The position numbers and the translations under genes were made by a program. Positions 26,729 to 37,674 of a DNA stretch of 64,000 nucleotides are shown one piece after another. A model generated the notes under the pieces. The model was not told the origin of the DNA and searched no databases. It saw only the letters and a list, made by a program, of their open reading frames with translations. The stretch's first letter is position 1; each line of letters begins with the position of its first letter. The DNA comes from Caballeronia udeis (GTDB lineage Bacteria > Pseudomonadota > Gammaproteobacteria > Burkholderiales > Burkholderiaceae): contig NZ_FCOK02000001.1 in the NCBI RefSeq assembly GCF_001544555.2, positions 124,001 to 188,000 on the forward strand, written 5' to 3'.

Positions 26729-27529
26729 TCACGCCGCACGCACCGCATCAAGCGCGCACTGCACCAGTTCCCGCATCAACGGCGCGACCTGTCCGGCGCG
26801 GGCTTCGTCATACGCATACGGCCGCGTCTCCTCCATATAAGTCACCTGCGACAACTCCAGCTGCACTGCGTGAATGCCGTCCCGCGGCGCCCCGTAGTGC
26901 CGCGTGATGTAACCGCCCTTGAAGCGGCCGTTCGCGACAGCCGTGTAAGCGCCCTGCCTGAGCACCATTGCTTCGAGCTTTTCCGCGAGACCCGCAACCG
27001 CGCTTTCCCCGCCCGCCGTGCCGAAATTGAAGTCGGCAAGCTTGCCGTCGAAGAAACGCGGCACGTGTGAACGGATTGAATGCGCTTCCCACAGCAGCGC
27101 TTTGCCGTGCACAGCTTTCAAACGCGCCAGCTCTTCGGTCAGCGCAGCGTGGTACGGCCGCCAATATTTCTCGCGACGGTTGGCGATCTGCGCCTCCGAA
27201 GGCGCAGCGCCGGCGGAATACAGCGCCTCGCTGTTGAACGTATCGACGGGACACAGGCCGGTTGTATCGCGTCCCGGATACAGGTTCGCGCCGTCGGGCG
27301 GACGGTTCAAATCGATCACATAACGCGAGTTCGCGGGCACGAGGATCGACGCGCCCATCTCCACCGCGAACGCGTAGAGACGTTCCAGATGCCAGTCGGT
27401 GTCGTCGACTTCACGGGCGATCGACGTCATGAAAGCGGCTATGTCGGCGGGAATCTGCGTGCCGGCATGGGGAATCGAAATCAGCAGCGGCGCAGTGCCG
27501 CGCTTCAACGTGAAAACTTGATCGGCCAC
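26729..27529 (-). CDS. hutG: N-formylglutamate deformylase
   Basis: 266-residue metal hydrolase that releases formate and glutamate from N-formylglutamate, the last step of the five-step histidine pathway. Motifs: SIPHAGTQIPADI near the N-terminus (zinc His), VIDLNRPPDGANLYPG, YWRPYHAAL and LLWEAHSIRSHVP. It lies 12 bp after hutF and is the last gene of hutU-D-I-F-G. Confidence 0.94.
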   Translation of the reverse strand: MADQVFTLKRGTAPLLISIPHAGTQIPADIAAFMTSIAREVDDTDWHLERLYAFAVEMGASILVPANSRYVIDLNRPPDGANLYPGRDTTGLCPVDTFNSEALYSAGAAPSEAQIANRREKYWRPYHAALTEELARLKAVHGKALLWEAHSIRSHVPRFFDGKLADFNFGTAGGESAVAGLAEKLEAMVLRQGAYTAVANGRFKGGYITRHYGAPRDGIHAVQLELSQVTYMEETRPYAYDEARAGQVAPLMRELVQCALDAVRAA

Positions 27530-27541
27530 AGGCTGCGTCCT

Positions 27542-28927
27542 TTATTTAAGCAATCCGGCCAGCGTATTTCGATACTGTCCGAACGACGCGTCTTCATCGC
27601 GATGCCGCCGCGCTTGAACCACGATGTTCCCGCCGACGCTCACATCGAGCACCGGCGTTTCACCGTGTTCGCAGAACACCACGCCCGATAACCACGCGTC
27701 CGGCGCGTGTCCGGCTATAGCCGGATGATCGGGATCGAGCACGATGAAATCCGCCTGGCGCCCCGCTTCCAGCACGCCGACCGCGCGGCCTGTGGCACGG
27801 GCTCCGCCTTGTACGGCGGCGTCGAAGAGACGGTCCGCCACGTGCGCCTGTTCATTCGATGCCAGCACGTTGCGCTCGCGGCGCGTCAGCCGTTGTCCGT
27901 ATTCGAGCAAGCGCAACTCTGAGCGCCAGTCGACGGCAATGTGGCTGTCCGAACCGAGTCCAAACCGTCCGCCATCGTTCAGGTACGCATACGCGGGGAA
28001 AATGCCATCGCCGAGATTGGCTTCGGTTGTCAGGCACAGGCCCGCGACAGCGCGACTTGCTGCCATTGCGCGGACTTCGTTGTCGTCGACGTGCGTGGCG
28101 TGCACGAGGCACCAGCGTTCGTTCACGTCGAAGTTATCGAGCAGCCAGCGCACGGGCCGCGCTTTCAGCGTCTCCAGACAGGCGTCGACTTCAGCCGTCT
28201 GCTCGGCTATGTGGATATGCACCGGCGCGCCCGGAAACGCGCTGTCGAGTCCGTTGAGCAAACGGCCCAGCGATTCCTTCGATACAGCCCGCAGCGAATG
28301 CGGTGCAACGCCATACCGCAGGTTGCCGTTTTCGGGCTGCGCCGCGCGCAATGAAACGAGGGCGTCGAGCAGGCTTTCCGGCGTGTGGACAAAACGCGCC
28401 TGACCCGCTGTGGGCTCGCGTTCGCCGAAACCGCCGTATTGATATAGCACGGGCAACATCGTCATGCCGATGCCGGTTTGTGCCGCTGCGTCGACCACAC
28501 GAGCGGCCATTTCGGAAGGATTCGCGTACGGCTTACCATCCGGTGCGTGATGCACGTAGTGGAATTCGCAGACCGACGTGTAGCCCGCCTTCAACATTTC
28601 GATATAAAGCCAGCGCGCGATATCGCCAATACTGTCCGGCGAAATACGCGCGGCAAACCGGTACATCAGGTCGCGCCAGCTCCAGAAGCTGTCCGTAGGA
28701 TTCGCGCGATATTCGGTGAGCCCCGCCATCGCGCGCTGGAACGCATGCGAGTGAAGATTCGGCATGCCGGCGAGCACCGGACCTTTCGCTTTATTCACGC
28801 CCGCCGGTTGCGCGCTGTCCGGCGTGACCGCGACCAACGTTCCGTGATCGTCCCATTCCAGCAGCACGTCGCGAGACCAGCCATCTTGCAAACGCGCGTG
28901 CTCGGCAAACAAGCTATTTCGTGTCAT
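27542..28927 (-). CDS. hutF: Formimidoylglutamate deiminase
   Basis: 461-residue amidohydrolase that converts N-formimidoyl-glutamate to N-formylglutamate and ammonia. Zinc-binding [16 protein letters not shown] (~54-69), [22 protein letters not shown] and [13 protein letters not shown] are present. Its start overlaps the hutI stop by 4 nt. Its presence with HutG shows the five-step route rather than the HutG-type formiminoglutamase route. Confidence 0.94.
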
Positions 28928-30156
28928 CGGATAGTCCGTTTATCTACGGTCACAACCCCGTGGCGCACGACCAGCGCGCAGCGATCGAGGCCGGTCCAGT
29001 ACGCCAGCTCCGCCAGCGTTTCGATATCCCACGCAACAAAGTCCGCCTTCGCACCAACGCTGATCTGGCCGCTGACATCGGCGTGACCTAGCGCTTTTGC
29101 GCCGTGACGTGTCACACCCGCGAGCACTTCAGCCACCGACAAACGAAACAACGTGCAGCCCATGTTGAGCATCAGCAGCAGCGACGTACTCGGCGATGTC
29201 CCCGGATTGCTGTCGGTGGCGAGCGCGATGGGTACGCCGTGGCGACGCAGCAGGTCGACAGGCGGCAACTGTTTTTCGCGGATGAAATAGAACGCGCCCG
29301 GCAACAACACGGCAACGGTGCCGGCTTCGCGCATCGCGATTGCGCCGGCTTCGTCGAGGAATTCGAGGTGATCGGCGGATAGCGCGTGATGCTTCGCCGC
29401 GAGCGCTGCGCCGCCCATCAGCGACAACTGCTCCGCGTGCATTTTCACGGGCAGATTCAGTTTCGATGCCGCGTTGAACACGCGTTCCGCTTGCGCGAGC
29501 GTGAACGCAATGCGCTCGCAGAAGACATCGACGGCATCGACCAGGCCTTCTGCCGCGAGCGTCGGCAACATCTCGTCGCAGACATGCGCGATGTAGTCAT
29601 CGGCACGGCCTGCGTATTCCGGCGGTAACGCGTGCGCGCCGAGGAATGTCGTGGCAATGGTCACCGGGCGCGCCGCTGCAAGCCGCCGTGCAACGCGCAG
29701 CATCTTGCGTTCGGTCGCAAGGTCCAGCCCATAACCCGATTTGATTTCCAGCGCGGTCACGCCTTCGGCGAGCAACGCATCCAGGCGGCGCAGCGATTGC
29801 GCGAACAGTTCGTCTTCGCTCGCGGCGCGTGTATTGCGCACGGTCGAGACAATGCCGCCGCCGCTTTTCGCGATGTCTTCGTAACTCGCCCCTTCAAGCC
29901 GCATCGCGAATTCTTCTGCGCGGTTTCCCGAGTAGACCAGGTGCGTGTGGCAATCGACGAGACCCGGCGTCACGATCCGCCCTTCCAGATCGTGGCTCGC
30001 GGCTTCGGCGAACGCGGAAGGTATGTCAGCTTCGGCGCCGAACCATTCGATACGCCCGTCGCGTACGACGATCGCCGCGTTTTCAAGAACATCCGCGGGA
30101 TCGGCGCGCGCTGCAAGACGCGCGTTGCGCCAGATTTGAGCGCTGTTGTCAGTCAT
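28924..30156 (-). CDS. hutI: Imidazolonepropionase
   Basis: 410-residue amidohydrolase that opens 4-imidazolone-5-propionate to formimidoylglutamate. Motifs: [49 protein letters not shown] and [10 protein letters not shown]. It overlaps hutD upstream and hutF downstream by 4 nt each, so the three are translationally coupled. Confidence 0.95.
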
Positions 30157-30737
30157 GTCAGCGATCCTTTGACAATGCGAGCGTCGATAAGAACCGCGCC
30201 CTTTGAAACCGGTTCGGCCTTCAGCAACGCATGCTCCCCAGCCTCGAAAACAAGCGCATCGCCCGGGGACAAACGCTCGCCATCAACAACAAACTCGCCA
30301 AGCGCACAGACCAGCACAACGCTGCCCTTCTCCACGCTCAACGCGGCCGCATCACGCCGCACCGTCACACTTCCCGACACACGATCCCGCCTCAACATCA
30401 GGTTGAAATCGCGCGTCGGACCGTGCGGCAACTCTGCCGTGATCTTTTTTTCGCCCGCGAACGCGAGCGAGTCCCAGCGCGCAAGAACGTGCCGCAGGCC
30501 GTCTGCATCGATGAGCGCCATCTCCGTGCCCTCGATCAACGTCAGCACGCGGTCAATGCCCTCGAACACCGAGAACGCCCCCGCCTCCGATACATCCGCG
30601 ACGCTCACGCGCCAGTCGAACGCATCGAAGGCGGCTCCCGGCGGCGACGCGGCGATCTCGCGCGTCGCCCCGCCGCCGTTCTTCCACGGCACGGCCTTCA
30701 AATCGGCCGCGCGAATAATGCTGAAGGCCGCTGCCAT
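30153..30737 (-). CDS. hutD: HutD-family cupin protein
   Basis: 194 residues from the ATG at 30737, two bases after the hutU stop. The HutD family signature [14 protein letters not shown] is at ~15-28, followed by cupin strands ([33 protein letters not shown]). HutD is not an enzyme of the pathway; in Pseudomonas it has been proposed to limit hut activity, possibly by binding an intermediate. It overlaps hutI by 4 nt. Confidence 0.92.
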
Positions 30738-30739
30738 GA

Positions 30740-32425
30740 TCAGGTCGTGATGAACGGCAGATCGAGGCCGAAGTTCTTCGCGCACTCAATGGCCTGCTCA
30801 TAACCGGCGTCGCCATGACGCATCACGCCCGACGCGCAGTCATTCACCAGCACGCGCGCAAGGCGCTTCTGGGCTGCATCGGTACCGTCAGCGACGATCA
30901 CCATGCCCGCGTGTTGCGAGTAGCCCATGCCGACCCCGCCGCCGTGATGCAGGCTGACCCACGTCGCGCCGCCCGCGGTGTTCAACAGTGCATTGAGCAG
31001 TGGCCAGTCCGACACGGCGTCCGTGCCGTCCTTCATGCTTTCCGTTTCGCGATTCGGGCTGGCGACCGAACCCGTATCCAGATGATCCCGGCCGATCACG
31101 ATCGGCGCTTTCAACTCGCCGCTCTTCACCATCTCGTTGAACGCGAGACCGGCGACGTGACGCTCGCCCAGGCCCAGCCAGCAGATCCGCGCCGGCAAAC
31201 CCTGGAACGCGATGCGGTCGCGCGCCATGTCGAGCCAGCGGTTCATGCCCGCGTTATGCGGGAACAGTTCTTTGAGCTTCGCGTCGGTCTTGTAGATGTC
31301 TTCCGGGTCGCCGGAGAGCGCAACCCAACGGAACGGACCCTTGCCTTCGCAAAACAACGGGCGAATGTACGCCGGAACGAAGCCGGGGAAATCGAACGCG
31401 TTCTTGACGCCGTCGTCGAAAGCGACCTGGCGCAGGTTGTTGCCGTAATCCACTGCGTGAATGCCCATCGCGTGGAAATCGAGCATGGCCTGGACGTGCT
31501 GGGCGCACGAGCGTTGCGCGGCGGCTTTCAGTTCAGCGTGCTGGGACTCATCCTGCGAAGCGGCGCGCCACTTTTCCAGGCTCCAGCCGGCCGGCAGATA
31601 GCCGTTGATCAGGTCGTGCGACGAGGTTTGATCGGTGACCAGGTCCGGCTTGATCCCGCCCGCCTTCGCGCGGCGCACGAGTTCCGGCAGAACTTCGGCC
31701 GCGTTGCCCAGCAGCGCGATAGAGACAGCGTCGCCGGCAGCCGTGTGTTGCTTGATCAGTTCAAGCGCATGGTCGATGTCCTTCGCTTGCTTGTCGACGT
31801 AGCGCGTACGCAGACGGAAGTCGATACGCGTCTGGTCGCATTCGATGTTCAGCGATACCGCGCCCGCCAGCGTCGCCGCCAGCGGCTGCGCGCCGCCCAT
31901 GCCGCCAAGACCCGCGGTCAGGATCCAGCGGCCCTTCCAGTCGCCGTTAAAGTGCTGCCGCGCGGCTTCGACGAAGGTTTCGTACGTGCCCTGCACGATT
32001 CCCTGGCTGCCGATGTAGATCCAGCTCCCGGCCGTCATCTGGCCGTACATGAACAGGCCCTTGCGGTCGAGTTCGTTGAAGTGTTCCCACGTGGCCCATT
32101 TCGGCACGAGGTTGGAGTTCGCGATCAACACGCGCGGCGCGTCGGCATGCGTCTTGAACACGCCGACCGGCTTGCCGGACTGAACCAGCAGCGATTCGTC
32201 GCTTTCCAGGCGCTGCAGCGTTTCAAGGATTTTGTCGAGACATTCCCAGTTGCGCGCAGCGCGGCCTATACCGCCATAGACCACCAGCTTGTCGGGGTTC
32301 TCGGCAACCTCCGGATCGAGGTTGTTCAGCAGCATCCGATACGGCGCTTCGGTGAGCCAGCTCTTGCACGTAAGCTCGGTGCCGCGCGGTGCGCGCAGGG
32401 GACGCGGGTTGTGGTTTTTCATCAA
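30740..32425 (-). CDS. hutU: Urocanate hydratase
   Basis: 561-residue NAD+-dependent enzyme that hydrates urocanate to imidazolonepropionate. The N-terminal [18 protein letters not shown], the NAD-binding [10 protein letters not shown], the [13 protein letters not shown] segment and the active-site [11 protein letters not shown] are all intact. It is the first gene of hutU-D-I-F-G, with a HutC-type palindrome ~90 bp upstream. Confidence 0.96.
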
Positions 32426-32514: not shown

Positions 32515-32526
32515 TTGTATATACAA
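32515..32526 (-). promoter_or_regulatory. HutC-type operator upstream of hutU
   Basis: Perfect 12-bp palindrome TTGTATATACAA. Read on the minus strand it contains a TATACA -10-like hexamer, with TTGT-rich sequence at about -35, so a bound repressor would block the promoter. It is identical to the core of the site at 37661-37674. HutC (GntR family) sites described in pseudomonads have this form. Confidence 0.7.
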
Positions 32527-32703: not shown

Positions 32704-34284
32704 CTAGAACCCGGGGTTTGCCTCGTGGACGAACGCCCAGGCTGCGGCAATATCGCCTGCCAATGGCCGGTCGTCGCGGTATTGGGAGATCACAGCCCGG
32801 ACGCTTCGATAAATTGCGTCGGTTTTAGGTGCGCGCGACAGGTCGGCGGGTTGCAGGTCATAGGCCTGAGCCGCAGCCAGCAATTCGATAGCAAGGATCC
32901 GCTCGGCATTGGCGATGATTTCCAGCGCCTTCAACGCAGCCGGCGTCGCGTGGCACAGATGGTCCTCCTGCAAGCCGGAGGTAATGCCCCCATCCAGGCT
33001 CGCAGGCATCGCAAGCCGGCGGTTGTGCGCAACCAGCGAAGCCGCCGTGTACTGCGCGATCATGAAACCGGAACACGTGCCGCCGCCATCGGCGAGAAAA
33101 GCGGGCAAGCCGCTTACCAGCGGGTTCACCAGCCGGTCGATGCGGCGCTCGGCCATCGCGGCGACCTCGGCCACCGCGGTGCTCAGGCTATCCATCGCCA
33201 GGCCGATCGACGCGCCCACCGCATGCGCCTGCGAAAACACCCGGGGCGACGCCAGCGTGCCGGCGACGACGGGGTTATCGGTGACCGAAGCCAGCTCGCG
33301 ATTCACCACTTCCGCCGTCGTCGCGAATACGTCGCGCGCCGCGCCGTGCACGTGGGGAATGGTCCTCAAGCTCAAGGGGTCCTGCGTCTTGCGTCCGAAC
33401 GACGCCGCGATGATGCCGCTGTCAGCAAGCAGCGCACGCAGGTGTGCGCCCACCAACGACAATCCCGGCGATATGCGCAGCGCGAGCGAGTCGGCATCGA
33501 AGGCGGCCGCCTGGCCGCGCAGGTTCTCGAAGGACATCGCCGAAATGGTGTCGGCCCATTCGAGCAGCCGCTCGGTGCGCGCCAGCGCCAGCGAGGCGAG
33601 TCCCGTCACGCAAGGCGTGCCGTTGACCACGCTCAGGCCCTCCTTCGCCTCGAGCACGAGCGGTTCGCGCGCGAGGCGCTGCAACGCGCCGGCGGCGCTC
33701 ATGCGGCCGGTGTCGTCGCGGACAAACCCTTCGCCGATCAGCACCAGCGCGATGTGCGCCATATGGCTCAGGTACCCGACCGAACCGAACGCCGGGACTT
33801 CGGGTATCAACCCGCTGTCGAGCAACGTGACGAGCAGTTCCACCAGTTCGAGCCGCACGCCGGAATGCCCGTGCGCGAAGTTGTTCACGGCGGCCGCGAT
33901 GATCGCGCGGGTCTCTTCCCGCCGCAGCGGCTCACCCACGCCGACCGAATGACTCATCAGGATGTTGCGCGACAACGCGCGCTGTTCCGACGGCGACACG
34001 ACCACGTCGCACAGCGCACCCACGCCGGTGTTCACGCCATACGCGCGAATCCGGCGTTCGACGATTCTCTCGACGAGCGCGCGCGCATGGTCGATCCGCG
34101 AACGCACCGCCGGCGACAAAACCAGCTTCGCGCCGTTCGCGATCTGCGCGACACCACGCCAGTCGAGCGGCTGGTCAATACACACGGAAGCCCGCGAGCG
34201 CTCGTTGCCGCAATCCTCATTCAAGTCCAAGCCGATGATGACGGGACCAATCGATGGCGTCGGTAAAACTGAACTGGCAAGCAC
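32704..34284 (-). CDS. Histidine ammonia-lyase homologue lacking the MIO tripeptide
   Basis: 526 residues, homologous to HutH along its length (AYGVNTGVG at 81-89, MSHSVGVGE at 110-118, QEDHLCHATPAALKALEI, AIELLAAAQAYDLQ). The family motif GSVGASGDLAPLAH, whose Ala-Ser-Gly cyclises to the MIO electrophile, is here GSVGYLSHMAH (167-177): three residues are missing and the ASG is gone. The catalytic Tyr of QDPYSLR is Leu304 (QDPLSLR). The His112, Asn221, Arg307 and QED Glu positions remain. It is 15 bp after hisP, the end of an importer operon. A classical ammonia-lyase activity is unlikely; its function is unknown. Confidence 0.85.
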   Translation of the reverse strand: MLASSVLPTPSIGPVIIGLDLNEDCGNERSRASVCIDQPLDWRGVAQIANGAKLVLSPAVRSRIDHARALVERIVERRIRAYGVNTGVGALCDVVVSPSEQRALSRNILMSHSVGVGEPLRREETRAIIAAAVNNFAHGHSGVRLELVELLVTLLDSGLIPEVPAFGSVGYLSHMAHIALVLIGEGFVRDDTGRMSAAGALQRLAREPLVLEAKEGLSVVNGTPCVTGLASLALARTERLLEWADTISAMSFENLRGQAAAFDADSLALRISPGLSLVGAHLRALLADSGIIAASFGRKTQDPLSLRTIPHVHGAARDVFATTAEVVNRELASVTDNPVVAGTLASPRVFSQAHAVGASIGLAMDSLSTAVAEVAAMAERRIDRLVNPLVSGLPAFLADGGGTCSGFMIAQYTAASLVAHNRRLAMPASLDGGITSGLQEDHLCHATPAALKALEIIANAERILAIELLAAAQAYDLQPADLSRAPKTDAIYRSVRAVISQYRDDRPLAGDIAAAWAFVHEANPGF

Positions 34285-34299
34285 GTCAACCTCGTCGAT

Positions 34300-35091
34300 T
34301 TAGTTAGCAGTACGGGAATGATGACTCGACACGAACTGCTGGAAACGTTCCGAGCAGCGGCCGTTGAACAGGTCGTCGGGTGCGCCTTCGGCATCGACCT
34401 GTCCCTGGTGCAGGAGCATCACGCGATTCGATACGTGCCGCGCGAAACCCATCTCATGCGTGACGACCAGCATGGTCCGGCCTTCCTCGGCGAGCGCGCG
34501 CATCACGCGCAATACTTCGCCGACCAGTTCCGGATCGAGCGCGGACGTGGGTTCATCGAAGAGCATGACCTTGGGATGCATGGCCAGCGCACGGGCAATC
34601 GCTACGCGCTGCTGCTGGCCGCCCGACAGATGCGCGGGGTAGGCATCGCGCTTCTCGTAAAGACCGACCTTCGTCAGCAACTGCTCCGCCTCTTCAACGC
34701 ACTCCGCACGCGTGCGTTTCTGGACGCGCAACGGCCCTTCAATCACGTTCTGCATCACCGTCATGTGCGACCAGAGATTGAAACTCTGGAACACCATGCC
34801 GAGCTGCGAGCGAATGCGGTCAACCTGCTTGCGGTTGCCCGGGTGCAGGCGTCCATCGCGGCCGCGCTTCATTTCGATCGCTTCGCCCGCGAGTTTCACT
34901 TCGCCGTCGTCGGGTGTTTCCAGCATGTTGATACAGCGCAGGAAGGTGCTTTTGCCGGACCCGCTCGCGCCGAGAATGGAGATCACATCGCCTTCGTGCG
35001 CGTCGAGGGAAATGCCCTTGAGCACGTGCGCGTCGCCGAAGGACTTGTGGATGTTGGTCGCGGACAGCGCAATGGAACTGCTTGGGTTCAT
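34300..35091 (-). CDS. hisP: Polar amino acid ABC transporter ATP-binding protein (HisP type)
   Basis: 263-residue ATPase with Walker [10 protein letters not shown], signature [15 protein letters not shown], Walker [15 protein letters not shown] and H-loop VVTHEMGFA. The insert [15 protein letters not shown] before the Q-loop is typical of the HisP/ArgT-system branch for basic amino acids. It belongs to the operon binding protein - permease - permease - ATPase - lyase homologue. Histidine is the likely ligand because of the HutC-type site and hut neighbours. Confidence 0.92.
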
Positions 35092-35110: not shown

Positions 35111-35893
35111 TCAGGAATCGATGTGCTGGCTGTCGGGGACCGTCACCGCTTTGAGCGTGGCCTGTGGACGCTTCTTCGGCGCGGTGGCGTTACGATCGCG
35201 CAGGTGCGGCGAAAGCTTCTTTTCGAGCATGCCCAGCGCCCGCACGATGATGAAATTCAGCACGAGGTAGATAGCGGCCGCGCAGATGAAAACCTCCATC
35301 GTGCGGTAGGTCCGCTGGATGATCTGCTGCGCGACGCCCGTCACGTCCCACACCGTGACAAGACTGGCCAGCGCCGTCGACTTGACGAGCAGCACGGCTT
35401 CGGTCGAGTACGCCGGCAATGCGTAACGCAGCGTGATCGGTGCGATGATCCGGCGCAACACCGTCCATCGCGACATGCCGCACGCAAGCGCCGCTTCAAT
35501 CTGCCCGTGCGGTACCGACTGCAGGCCGCCGCGAATGATCTCGGCGGTATATCCGGCCGTGCACAGCGCAAGCGAGACGATCGCGCACACGTACGGCACG
35601 CGCAGCAGCGGCCAGAGGAAGCTCTCGCGGACGGCCGGGAACTGGCCCAGGCCGTAATAGACAAGGAACATCTGGATCAGCAGCGGCGAGCCGCGAAACA
35701 CCAGGATGTAGCCACGCGCAAAGCGGTTGAGCGCCCAGTTCGGGCTCACCCGCATCGCGACAATCACAAGAGAAAGCAAACCGCCCACGATCAGCGAGGC
35801 GAAGAACAACCCGAGCGTGGTGGGAACGGCGGCTAATAGTTTCGACAACGTATCGCCGAGAAATTCGAAATCGATATTCATGGTCGGATTCAC
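35111..35893 (-). CDS. hisM: Polar amino acid ABC transporter permease (HisM type)
   Basis: 260-residue inner-membrane permease with five or six helices, starting with a short cytoplasmic stretch. The HisM/GlnP motifs [20 protein letters not shown] and the EAA loop [22 protein letters not shown] are clear. Its C-terminus is a longer basic tail ([13 protein letters not shown]). It pairs with the 36660 permease. The two genes are 44 bp apart, and the gap carries an octamer repeat. Confidence 0.92.
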
Positions 35894-35910: not shown

Positions 35911-35942
35911 GGCTCAGTGGCTCAGTGGCTCAGTGGCTCAGT
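35911..35942. repeat. Octamer tandem repeat (GGCTCAGT x4)
   Basis: Four exact copies of GGCTCAGT. They start in the 3' end of the first permease gene (its TGA stop is at 35938-35940, inside the last copy) and run into the 44-bp gap before the second permease gene. Each copy adds a TGA in the minus strand, so the gene end is stable to copy change, but the spacing to the next start is not. Confidence 0.85.
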
Positions 35943-36660
35943 GCCGCGCGAGCGTGCCGCGAAACGATCGGCCGATACGTGCTTCGGCACGCTCGAAGAC
36001 CCGGTTCGACAGGCTCGTGAGGATCAGGTACAGCGCACCGCCGACCATATAAAACGTGAAGTATTGATGTGTCGATCCGGCGGCGACCTGGCTGGTACGC
36101 ATCAGTTCCGCGAGCCCTGTCACTGCGATCAACGCTGAATCCTTGAGGCTCAATTGCCACACGTTGCCAATACCGGGCAACGCAAAACGGATGACTTGCG
36201 GAATCAGCACGCGCCGCCATAACGTTGCCGTCGGCATGCCGATGGCCCGCGCCGCCTCGATCTCGCCACGCGACACCGCCAGCACCGCCGAGCGATACAC
36301 CTCAGCTTGATACGATCCGGAAATCAGGCCAATGGCGAGTGCGCCGACCACGAAAGGCGGCACGCCGATGAACCCGTCGGCGCCGAAAAAGTGGCCGACG
36401 GCGGTCATCACCGACGAGCCGCCGAAGTAGAAGAGATAGATGATCAGCAGTTCGGGAATGCCGCGAAAGAGCGTGGTGTAGGCATCGCCGATAATTCTTA
36501 GCGTGCGGCTGCGCGACAGCTTCGCGGCAGCGACCATTGCGCCGAACACTGCGCCGACTGCAAGCGCGGCGATCGTCAGCACCACGGTCATGAGCAGTGC
36601 GAGCAGCAAGGTGGCGCCCCACCCTTGCTCGCCGAAGCCGAGTAGTTGAACCAGACTCAT
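35938..36660 (-). CDS. hisQ: Polar amino acid ABC transporter permease (HisQ type)
   Basis: 240-residue inner-membrane permease with the HisQ pattern: GDAYTTLFRGIPELLIIYLFYFG, then the EAA loop EIEAARAIGMPTATLWRRVLIPQVIRFALPGIGN. It forms a heterodimer with the 35893 permease. It is 83 bp after the binding-protein gene. Its stop lies inside an octamer tandem repeat. Confidence 0.92.
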   Translation of the reverse strand: MSLVQLLGFGEQGWGATLLLALLMTVVLTIAALAVGAVFGAMVAAAKLSRSRTLRIIGDAYTTLFRGIPELLIIYLFYFGGSSVMTAVGHFFGADGFIGVPPFVVGALAIGLISGSYQAEVYRSAVLAVSRGEIEAARAIGMPTATLWRRVLIPQVIRFALPGIGNVWQLSLKDSALIAVTGLAELMRTSQVAAGSTHQYFTFYMVGGALYLILTSLSNRVFERAEARIGRSFRGTLARH

Positions 36661-36743: not shown

Positions 36744-37610
36744 TCAAGGTGTAGCGTCTACCTTCAGCCACTTCAGCGAGAGGCGCTTGACCGTGCCGTC
36801 GGCGAGTGCCGCCTGGATGCCCTGGTCGAATTTCGCCTTCAGGTCCTTGTCGGACTGACGGAACGCGAGCGCTTCGCCCGGGCCCCAGATCGATCCGGCG
36901 ATCTTCGGACCGGTGAACGCAAGGCCCTTGTTTTCCGGCTTGGTGAATGCCGAAGCCCAATAGGTACTGTCGTCGAAAGCGACGTCAATGCGGCCGGCGA
37001 CCAGATCGAGGTCATGCTCCGGCGCTGTCTTGTATTCGCGGATGGTCGCGACGTCCTTGAAGTTCGTATCGATGAACTTGGTGTAGACCGTGCCCGACTG
37101 GATGCCGATGGTCTTGCCCTTCAGCGCGACACGCAGTGCATCGACCGTGGCTTTGTCGTGGGCGGTGTCGCCGGTCAGCTTGACGGTCTGGCCTGCGCCG
37201 GGTTGCTTCGCGAGCGAGGCCGCGCTTTGGTCGGCGGACACGAAAGCAGCCGGGGTCGCTGCGTACGGCGTCGAGAAAGCGATGATTTTTTCGCGTTCAG
37301 GCGTGACCGAGATGGCGTCCATCAGCACGTCGAACTTGCCCGCTTGCAGGCCGGCGATCATGCCGTCCCAGTCTTGCGTGACCAGGTTGCACTGGATCTT
37401 GATACGGGCGCAGACGTTCTCGATCAGTTCCGGCTCAAAACCGCCGAGCTTGCCGCCGGGGAGCGTCAGGTTCCACGGTTCGTACGCGCCTTCCGTGGCG
37501 ATCGTGACGGATTTCCAGTCTTTTGCCTGGGCGCTGACAGCGCCGAGAGCGATTACACCAACGGCCACCGATGCAGCCAGCCGGGCGAGCAATTTCATTT
37601 TGCCTGTCAT
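36744..37610 (-). CDS. Polar amino acid ABC transporter substrate-binding protein
   Basis: 288 residues from the ATG at 37610; an in-frame ATG at 37598 also fits. A Sec signal (AASVAVGVIALGAVSAQA) is followed by the mature domain. Visible are the amino-acid-binding residues of the HisJ/LAO-like class: ATEGAYEPWN, GFEPELIENVC, DWDGMIAGLQAGKFDVLMD, SVTPEREKIIAFS and a Gly-Thr SGT loop. It is the first gene of the operon, 51 bp downstream of a HutC-type palindrome, so histidine or urocanate is the likely ligand. Confidence 0.9.
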   Translation of the reverse strand: MTGKMKLLARLAASVAVGVIALGAVSAQAKDWKSVTIATEGAYEPWNLTLPGGKLGGFEPELIENVCARIKIQCNLVTQDWDGMIAGLQAGKFDVLMDAISVTPEREKIIAFSTPYAATPAAFVSADQSAASLAKQPGAGQTVKLTGDTAHDKATVDALRVALKGKTIGIQSGTVYTKFIDTNFKDVATIREYKTAPEHDLDLVAGRIDVAFDDSTYWASAFTKPENKGLAFTGPKIAGSIWGPGEALAFRQSDKDLKAKFDQGIQAALADGTVKRLSLKWLKVDATP

Positions 37611-37660: not shown

Positions 37661-37674
37661 CTTGTATATACAAG
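37661..37674 (-). promoter_or_regulatory. HutC-type operator upstream of the importer operon
   Basis: Perfect 14-bp palindrome CTTGTATATACAAG. Its core equals the site upstream of hutU. A TATACA -10-like hexamer lies inside it, and TTTTGTTC at -35 distance resembles the hutU arrangement. Strong support for joint control. Confidence 0.75.

Follow-up and report, generated by a model that had tools for sequence, protein, structure and literature searches.

The window, the whole 64,000-nucleotide stretch of Caballeronia udeis DNA that was analysed, carries on its minus strand a gene for a homologue of histidine ammonia-lyase (HAL, HutH) that lacks the MIO tripeptide, here called HutH*. The genes run in the order binding protein, two permeases, ATPase and HutH*, followed after ∼280 bp by hutU, hutD, hutI, hutF and hutG:

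37662..37673, no strand: palindrome TTGTATATACAA, HutC-operator-like, upstream of the importer operon
36744..37610, minus strand: importer substrate-binding protein gene, its start being the ATG at 37610 inside the ORF 37718-36744
35938..36660, minus strand: importer permease gene, HisQ-like
35111..35893, minus strand: importer permease gene, HisM-like
34300..35091, minus strand: importer ATPase gene, HisP-like (352 bits against the HisP model, under its cut-off of 466)
32704..34284, minus strand: HutH* gene, an MIO-less HutH/HAL homologue of 526 aa with a GTG start (PF00221, 501 bits)
33754..33786, minus strand: codons for residues 167-177 (GSVGYLSHMAH), which lack the MIO tripeptide (position derived from the residue numbering)
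33373..33375, minus strand: codon for Leu304, which aligns with Tyr280 of P. putida HAL (position derived from the residue numbering)
32515..32526, no strand: palindrome TTGTATATACAA, HutC-operator-like, between HutH* and hutU
30740..32425, minus strand: hutU (urocanate hydratase), which would take urocanate
30153..30785, minus strand: hutD-like gene
28924..30156, minus strand: hutI (imidazolonepropionase)
27542..28927, minus strand: hutF (formimidoylglutamate deiminase)
26729..27529, minus strand: hutG (N-formylglutamate deformylase)

The two palindromes, which we take to be the HutC operator, are the only occurrences of TTGTATATACAA in the window. A canonical hutH was not found within the window. 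The first-pass annotation had suggested looking for an MIO-intact hutH elsewhere in this genome, and MIO-bearing family members are indeed present there. Two canonical hutH copies seem to be split at contig ends, with pieces on contigs C154 and C104 (carrying the MIO motif) and on C87 and C8, the pairing of the pieces being inferred from the genome G034; contig C53 carries another MIO-bearing homologue. The contig breaks in both canonical copies are perhaps due to the likeness of the copies to each other.

The missing MIO site

Profile matching and structural overlay identify the HAL fold and the PF00221 domain in the window protein, and alignment with the family shows that the Ala-Ser-Gly that forms the MIO group is absent. 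Exactly three residues are missing by comparison with MIO-bearing members, and it is the placement of the gap that decides whether this is worded as loss of Ala-Ser-Gly with a change of Asp to Tyr, or as loss of Ser-Gly-Asp with a change of Ala to Tyr. Translation and alignment bear out what the first-pass annotation had read here: the loss of the tripeptide within GSVGYLSHMAH, the replacement of Tyr by Leu at residue 304 (Tyr280 in P. putida HAL numbering), the retention of His112, Asn221, Arg307 and Glu440, a frame that is open and full length from 34284 down to 32704, and a gap of 15 bp between HutH* and the importer ATPase gene upstream. The pocket residues on both the imidazole side and the carboxylate side are thus kept. 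Its proposal that ordinary histidine ammonia-lyase activity has been lost is also supported as likely, since the MIO group cannot form at this site; such activity in HutH* would be unlikely. The protein scores 453.6 against the NCBIfam hutH model TIGR01225, under the cut-off of 539.15, and 468.9 against a second NCBIfam hutH model, under the cut-off of 524.

An alignment of 235 distinct sequences (154 HutH*, 71 MIO-bearing, and 10 ergothionase and ergothionase-like) places these changes in context, with residue numbers and roles that we assign on the assumption that P. putida HAL is a valid guide. The tripeptide loss is invariant among the 154 HutH* sequences, all of which have Leu in the Tyr280 column, as do all 10 ergothionase and ergothionase-like sequences, whereas the 71 MIO-bearing sequences all have Tyr. 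Tyr171 and His174 are likewise present in 154/154, and the positions of Tyr53, His83, Asn195, Gln277, Arg283 and Glu414 are kept in every HutH* sequence. Column 412 is Tyr throughout HutH*, whereas 67 of the 68 HAL rows have Val, one has Tyr, and the Treponema denticola ergothionase 6s7j and all nine of its relatives have Lys. The window protein thus differs from canonical HutH at the tripeptide, at Tyr280 and at residue 412.

Tyr53 of P. putida HAL (Tyr82 in the window protein) is presumably the catalytic base, and its retention in all 154 sequences speaks for catalysis rather than binding alone, although binding alone would still be compatible with it. A cysteine, Cys225, lies beside Asn195 in 152 of the 154 rows, and could in principle support other chemistry in this pocket, for example the cis-trans isomerisation of urocanate or the racemisation of histidine. 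We regard this as very improbable: two divergent members (L219 and L221) have Ala at this position, and among the gene contexts seen, none points to cis-urocanate or D-histidine.

Extent and ancestry of the HutH* clade

The loss is not an oddity of this one gene. Within the genus, the tripeptide is absent from all 16 HutH*-type loci covering the site, 13 of them at 88-100% identity and three at 71-73%, while two further loci do not cover it; one relative, L058, has 88% identity to the window HutH* and the same operon. The tripeptide is likewise missing at 80/80 named loci (the best 80 of 590 relatives, a few of the loci being truncated at contig ends), all of which show the motif GS[VA]GY[LI]xH and which come from Burkholderiaceae, Hyphomicrobiales, Pseudomonas and gammaproteobacterial metagenome-assembled genomes (MAGs). 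A census of 397 Pseudomonadota genomes gave a family match in 200 and HutH* in 27, a number that may be a lower bound with at most three candidates scored per genome. These 27 have 48-100% identity to the window protein, against at most 42% for the other matches listed, and all, the window gene and L017 included, are MIO-less with the motif GS[VA]GY[LI]xH; this motif, Leu304, Tyr171, His174 and Tyr412 are all found in the window protein. A family match is present in 75 of 79 Pseudomonas-group genomes; 59 of these hold between them 60 places with 46-64% identity, and each of the 59 has at least two matches. The 30 of these 60 places that were read (L157, L168-L196) are all MIO-less.

Frames are open in every full-length copy from the genus, and the median dN/dS for HutH* there is 0.086 (78 pairs, range 0.045-0.118), compared with 0.060 for canonical HutH (66 pairs); the clade is under purifying selection. 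A decayed or mis-assembled histidine ammonia-lyase might be suspected from the missing tripeptide itself, and from the genus genomes G003, G015, G051 and G056, in which HutH* matches lie in pieces, some small, a sign of decay or of a broken assembly in those genomes. The identical loss at 80/80 (the best 80 of 590 relatives) and 27/27 loci, the dN/dS value and the open frames refute decay or mis-assembly as a general account, and we give it almost no credence for the window gene. HutH* is a conserved, mis-annotated clade rather than an error or a lone case. Plasmid records name its members histidine ammonia-lyase, and one MIO-less Pseudomonas-group protein (L169:1504-2985) scores 539.9, over the NCBIfam hutH equivalog cut-off of 539.15, so that automatic naming as histidine ammonia-lyase is to be expected. 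Metabolic models may in consequence credit HutH* members with a reaction that is impossible by the known mechanism.

In a tree of 50 thinned rows that excluded the trait columns, HutH* forms one clade (32 rows, support 100/99) beside MIO-bearing HAL, with the window protein inside it, and the ergothionase-like rows form a separate clade (7 rows, support 100/99). A joint MIO-less clade has a p-AU of 0.053 in the AU test with all rows, and of 0.162 when six long-branch rows are removed. Neither value rejects a joint clade, so that two separate MIO losses, one in HutH* and one in ergothionase, are favoured only as the likelier course over a single joint origin.

By tree and motif, Pseudomonas HutH1, whose gene adjoins hutXWV, and S. 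meliloti HutH2 probably belong to the same clade as the window protein, to which most Pseudomonas copies have 46-53% identity; the S. meliloti member is one we assume to be hutH2. Six census loci belong to group g41, which we take to be Pseudomonas since one of its genomes recurs in the Pseudomonas-group set; their gene order is HutW-HutV-HutH*-HutH, from which it is very probable that Pseudomonas HutH1 lies in the HutH* clade, the named SBW25 gene being assigned by gene order. HutH1 is reported to be dispensable for growth on histidine, and the HutH* clade offers a concrete account of this.

Gene neighbourhoods and the importer

The suggestion that HutH* always sits beside importer genes does not hold, although the association is common. 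At 63 of the 80 named loci an importer ATPase gene lies directly upstream (55 HisP-like, 8 HutV-like); a hutC-like gene is present at 68, some hut gene at 69 and a canonical hutH at 17, and five have hutU without a canonical hutH in the same locus. Importer and hut genes are both absent from ten loci. A site of the TTGTATATACAA type, with at most one mismatch, occurs in 25/80 of these loci versus 1/80 after one shuffle of each. In the Pseudomonas group, an MIO-bearing HutH adjoins HutH* at 26 of 28 loci (L169-L196).

Other settings are also seen. In two gammaproteobacterial MAGs (L089:8549-13429 and L090) HutH* follows tsaD and folB and precedes a methyltransferase gene, and a hut gene was not found within either locus; in a third (L080), tsaD and a methyltransferase gene flank HutH*. 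A molybdopterin hydroxylase cluster adjoins a stand-alone HutH* in Rhizobium daejeonense and Ciceribacter, and at L056:7050-14746 and L114 HutH* is clustered with a PhnD-type binding protein, a fatty-acid-desaturase-like gene, a cytochrome c and a molybdopterin hydroxylase. On a plasmid of Aureimonas AU20 (L055:6732-14751), HutH* is the sole hutH of a complete hutC-F-H-I-G-U-D cluster.

What does the importer carry? Compared over 36744-37607, the range also used for the rows of the FDD motif, the window binding protein is nearest to octopine-binding (229 bits) and nopaline-binding (204 bits) proteins; HisJ reaches 94.5 bits. Among NCBIfam models, the one that this protein matches best is for a lysine/arginine/ornithine subfamily (220.2, under the cut-off of 256.35). 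The importer beside Pseudomonas HutH1 is HutXWV, as opposed to the HisJQMP type of the window; for S. meliloti HutX, the PDB matches are all betaine- or choline-type binding proteins (5/5, best 119.6 bits), and S. meliloti HutXWV presumably imports betaines. Betaine-/choline-type and opine-binding proteins both bind N-substituted ligands. The FDD motif, which from the HisJ structure and its Asp161 we assume could bind free ammonium, is kept in 59 of 62 HisJ-type binding-protein rows; the octopine and nopaline binders differ there.

Published reports on related importers point to histidine. One paper names the HisJMPQ system of Burkholderia, and the HutXYZ system of Pseudomonas and some Rhizobiales, as known histidine uptake systems (PMC5343134), SBW25 hutXWV is reported to take part in histidine uptake (PMC8871633), and three papers describe related importers as taking up histidine, or both histidine and proline (PMC5343134, PMC8871633, PMC5596199). 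The description of HutH* as the end of a histidine import operon needs two refinements: the operon runs on into hut genes on the same strand, and the binding protein is closest to opine binders even though related importers are reported to take up histidine.

A possible MIO-free lyase

The first-pass annotation suggested a regulator, sensor, storage protein or new enzyme; a lead for the first three of these is not supported, and a precedent was overlooked. Ergothionase (T. denticola 6s7j, Burkholderia sp. HME13) has in common with HutH* the HAL fold, the absence of MIO and a Leu at the Tyr280 position, in the sequence QDPLSFR in 6s7j. The overlay of 6s7j on the window protein gives 26% identity, with a match of 155.9 bits. 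Differences are nevertheless marked: the loop is SSIGEGDITTLSH in ergothionase, with SSIGEGDI, but GSVGYLSH in HutH*, and the S-x-G-E-x-D-I of 6s7j and L225 is absent from HutH*. Lys383 of ergothionase is replaced by Tyr412, and Lys63 by Cys, Ser or Ala; both lysines we take to be catalytic. Over the 18 columns that part HutH* from HAL, 6s7j agrees five times with HutH* and three times with HAL, so that the shared Leu280 is suggestive rather than a strong signature on its own. In PMC13405746, ergothionase is described as converting ergothioneine to thiourocanate and trimethylamine without MIO, and the Burkholderia enzyme as matching only HAL/PAL/TAL relatives when used as a BLASTP query; its assay is read at 311 nm, according to PMC11089744.

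Ergothionase-like genes also occur in the same genus, at L225:7176-8699 (264.7 bits to 6s7j) and L227:6079-7605. A hutU-like gene (49-50% identity), possibly a thiourocanate hydratase, lies near them at two of the three genus loci read, L225 and L227; at the third, L229, the ergothionase-like match is in two pieces and a hutU-like gene was not found at the locus. Six rhizobial loci (L231-L236) hold a further MIO-less group with the loop GS[IM]GCADI and Leu at Tyr280, and a hutU-like gene is near all six.

We tentatively propose, with somewhat less than even confidence, that HutH* is an MIO-free lyase whose substrate is a histidine methylated at N-alpha, with hercynine as the likeliest candidate, and whose product is urocanate for HutU. 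The broader proposition, that HutH* would be a second MIO-free HAL-fold lyase branch, independent of ergothionase and converting hercynine to urocanate and trimethylamine, with the electrophile and Tyr280 lost twice, we put forward a little more guardedly. We infer the catalysis, the substrate, the leaving group and the roles of the new residues. Hercynine (N-alpha-trimethyl-histidine, histidine betaine), or a related N-alpha-methylated histidine, would enter through the adjacent ABC importer. Its imidazole would be held by His112 and Glu440 and its carboxylate by Arg307, roles that we carry over from HAL work, while Tyr82 would pull the beta proton from the substrate. Trimethylamine would then depart and trans-urocanate would go to HutU. 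An electrophile would not be needed, consistent with the deletion of the tripeptide and the change of the amine-side Tyr280 to Leu as in ergothionase, and the invariant Tyr171, His174 and Tyr412 may shape the new site.

Why would HutH* have dispensed with the MIO group? Our proposal is that it did so because the substrate brings its own good leaving group; keeping the base and the substrate-holding residues while dropping the electrophile and the amine-side tyrosine is what one would expect of a lyase whose leaving group no longer needs activation. We count in favour of hercynine the Leu280 shared with ergothionase, the ergothionase precedent, the kept pocket residues, the invariant Tyr412, the single clade under purifying selection, the lack of a canonical hutH in the window and at five of the 80 loci with hutU, the position of hutU after HutH* in the window, a lyase-plus-hydratase pairing that by analogy resembles that at the genus and rhizobial ergothionase-like loci, together with the frequent upstream importer ATPase and the apparent betaine-/opine-type kinship of the binding proteins. 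Against it we count the different loop and the absence of Lys63 and Lys383, the reports of related importers as histidine uptake systems, the retention of FDD, and the 10 loci with neither importer nor hut gene.

A further point counted against hercynine, and equally expected of a regulator, is the constant company of another family member: genomes with a full-length HutH* have a further one in 27/27, 33/33, 59/59 and 16/16 cases in four overlapping sets, that of 33 being the genomes from which 33 of the 80 named loci come and that of 16 the genus genomes with a full-length copy. The main rival, which we think rather unlikely, is a non-catalytic pseudo-histidase that would bind histidine or urocanate and regulate through mixed tetramers with canonical HutH or through signalling to the importer. 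The adjoining importer genes and their reported histidine uptake, the HutC-like operators, and the joint loss of MIO and Tyr280 with the pocket residues kept would all fit such a protein. The invariant Tyr53 goes beyond what binding alone would demand, however, some loci stand apart from both importer and hut genes, and ergothionase provides an MIO-free catalytic precedent (PMC13405746).

The likeness of the binding protein to octopine and nopaline binders, and the fold and Leu280 common to ergothionase, would also suit an MIO-free lyase for another N-substituted histidine, for example ergothioneine or the opine histopine. This is clearly unlikely: a secondary amine would presumably still need activation in order to leave, the ergothionase lysines are missing from HutH*, and the separate ergothionase-like genes in the same genus imply that ergothioneine probably has its own lyase there.

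If the hercynine reading is true, HutH* would be a hercynine sink and a source of trimethylamine, and would offer a natural test of an MIO enzyme without its electrophile. It would also point to unrecognised use of histidine betaine in soil and rhizosphere bacteria (Pseudomonas, rhizobia and relatives of Burkholderia), hidden under the hutH name. Among the matches listed from the open-licence literature there was nothing on a hercynine lyase or on MIO loss in HutH1, an absence that is weak given the open-licence scope.

Finally, the distribution of EgtD, which makes hercynine, bears on the proposal. EgtD (TIGR03438) scores over its cut-off in 4 of the 27 HutH* genomes versus 66 of the 173 other family-bearing genomes (Fisher p 0.018, uncorrected for kinship). 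The direction, with EgtD rarer in HutH* genomes, fits the hercynine reading, yet coexistence occurs: the C. udeis genome itself has one EgtD, a marginal match at 293.1 against a cut-off of 290.9. In another HutH*-bearing genome (G421:C8:10214-10995), an egtD-like match lies in pieces with an internal TGA.
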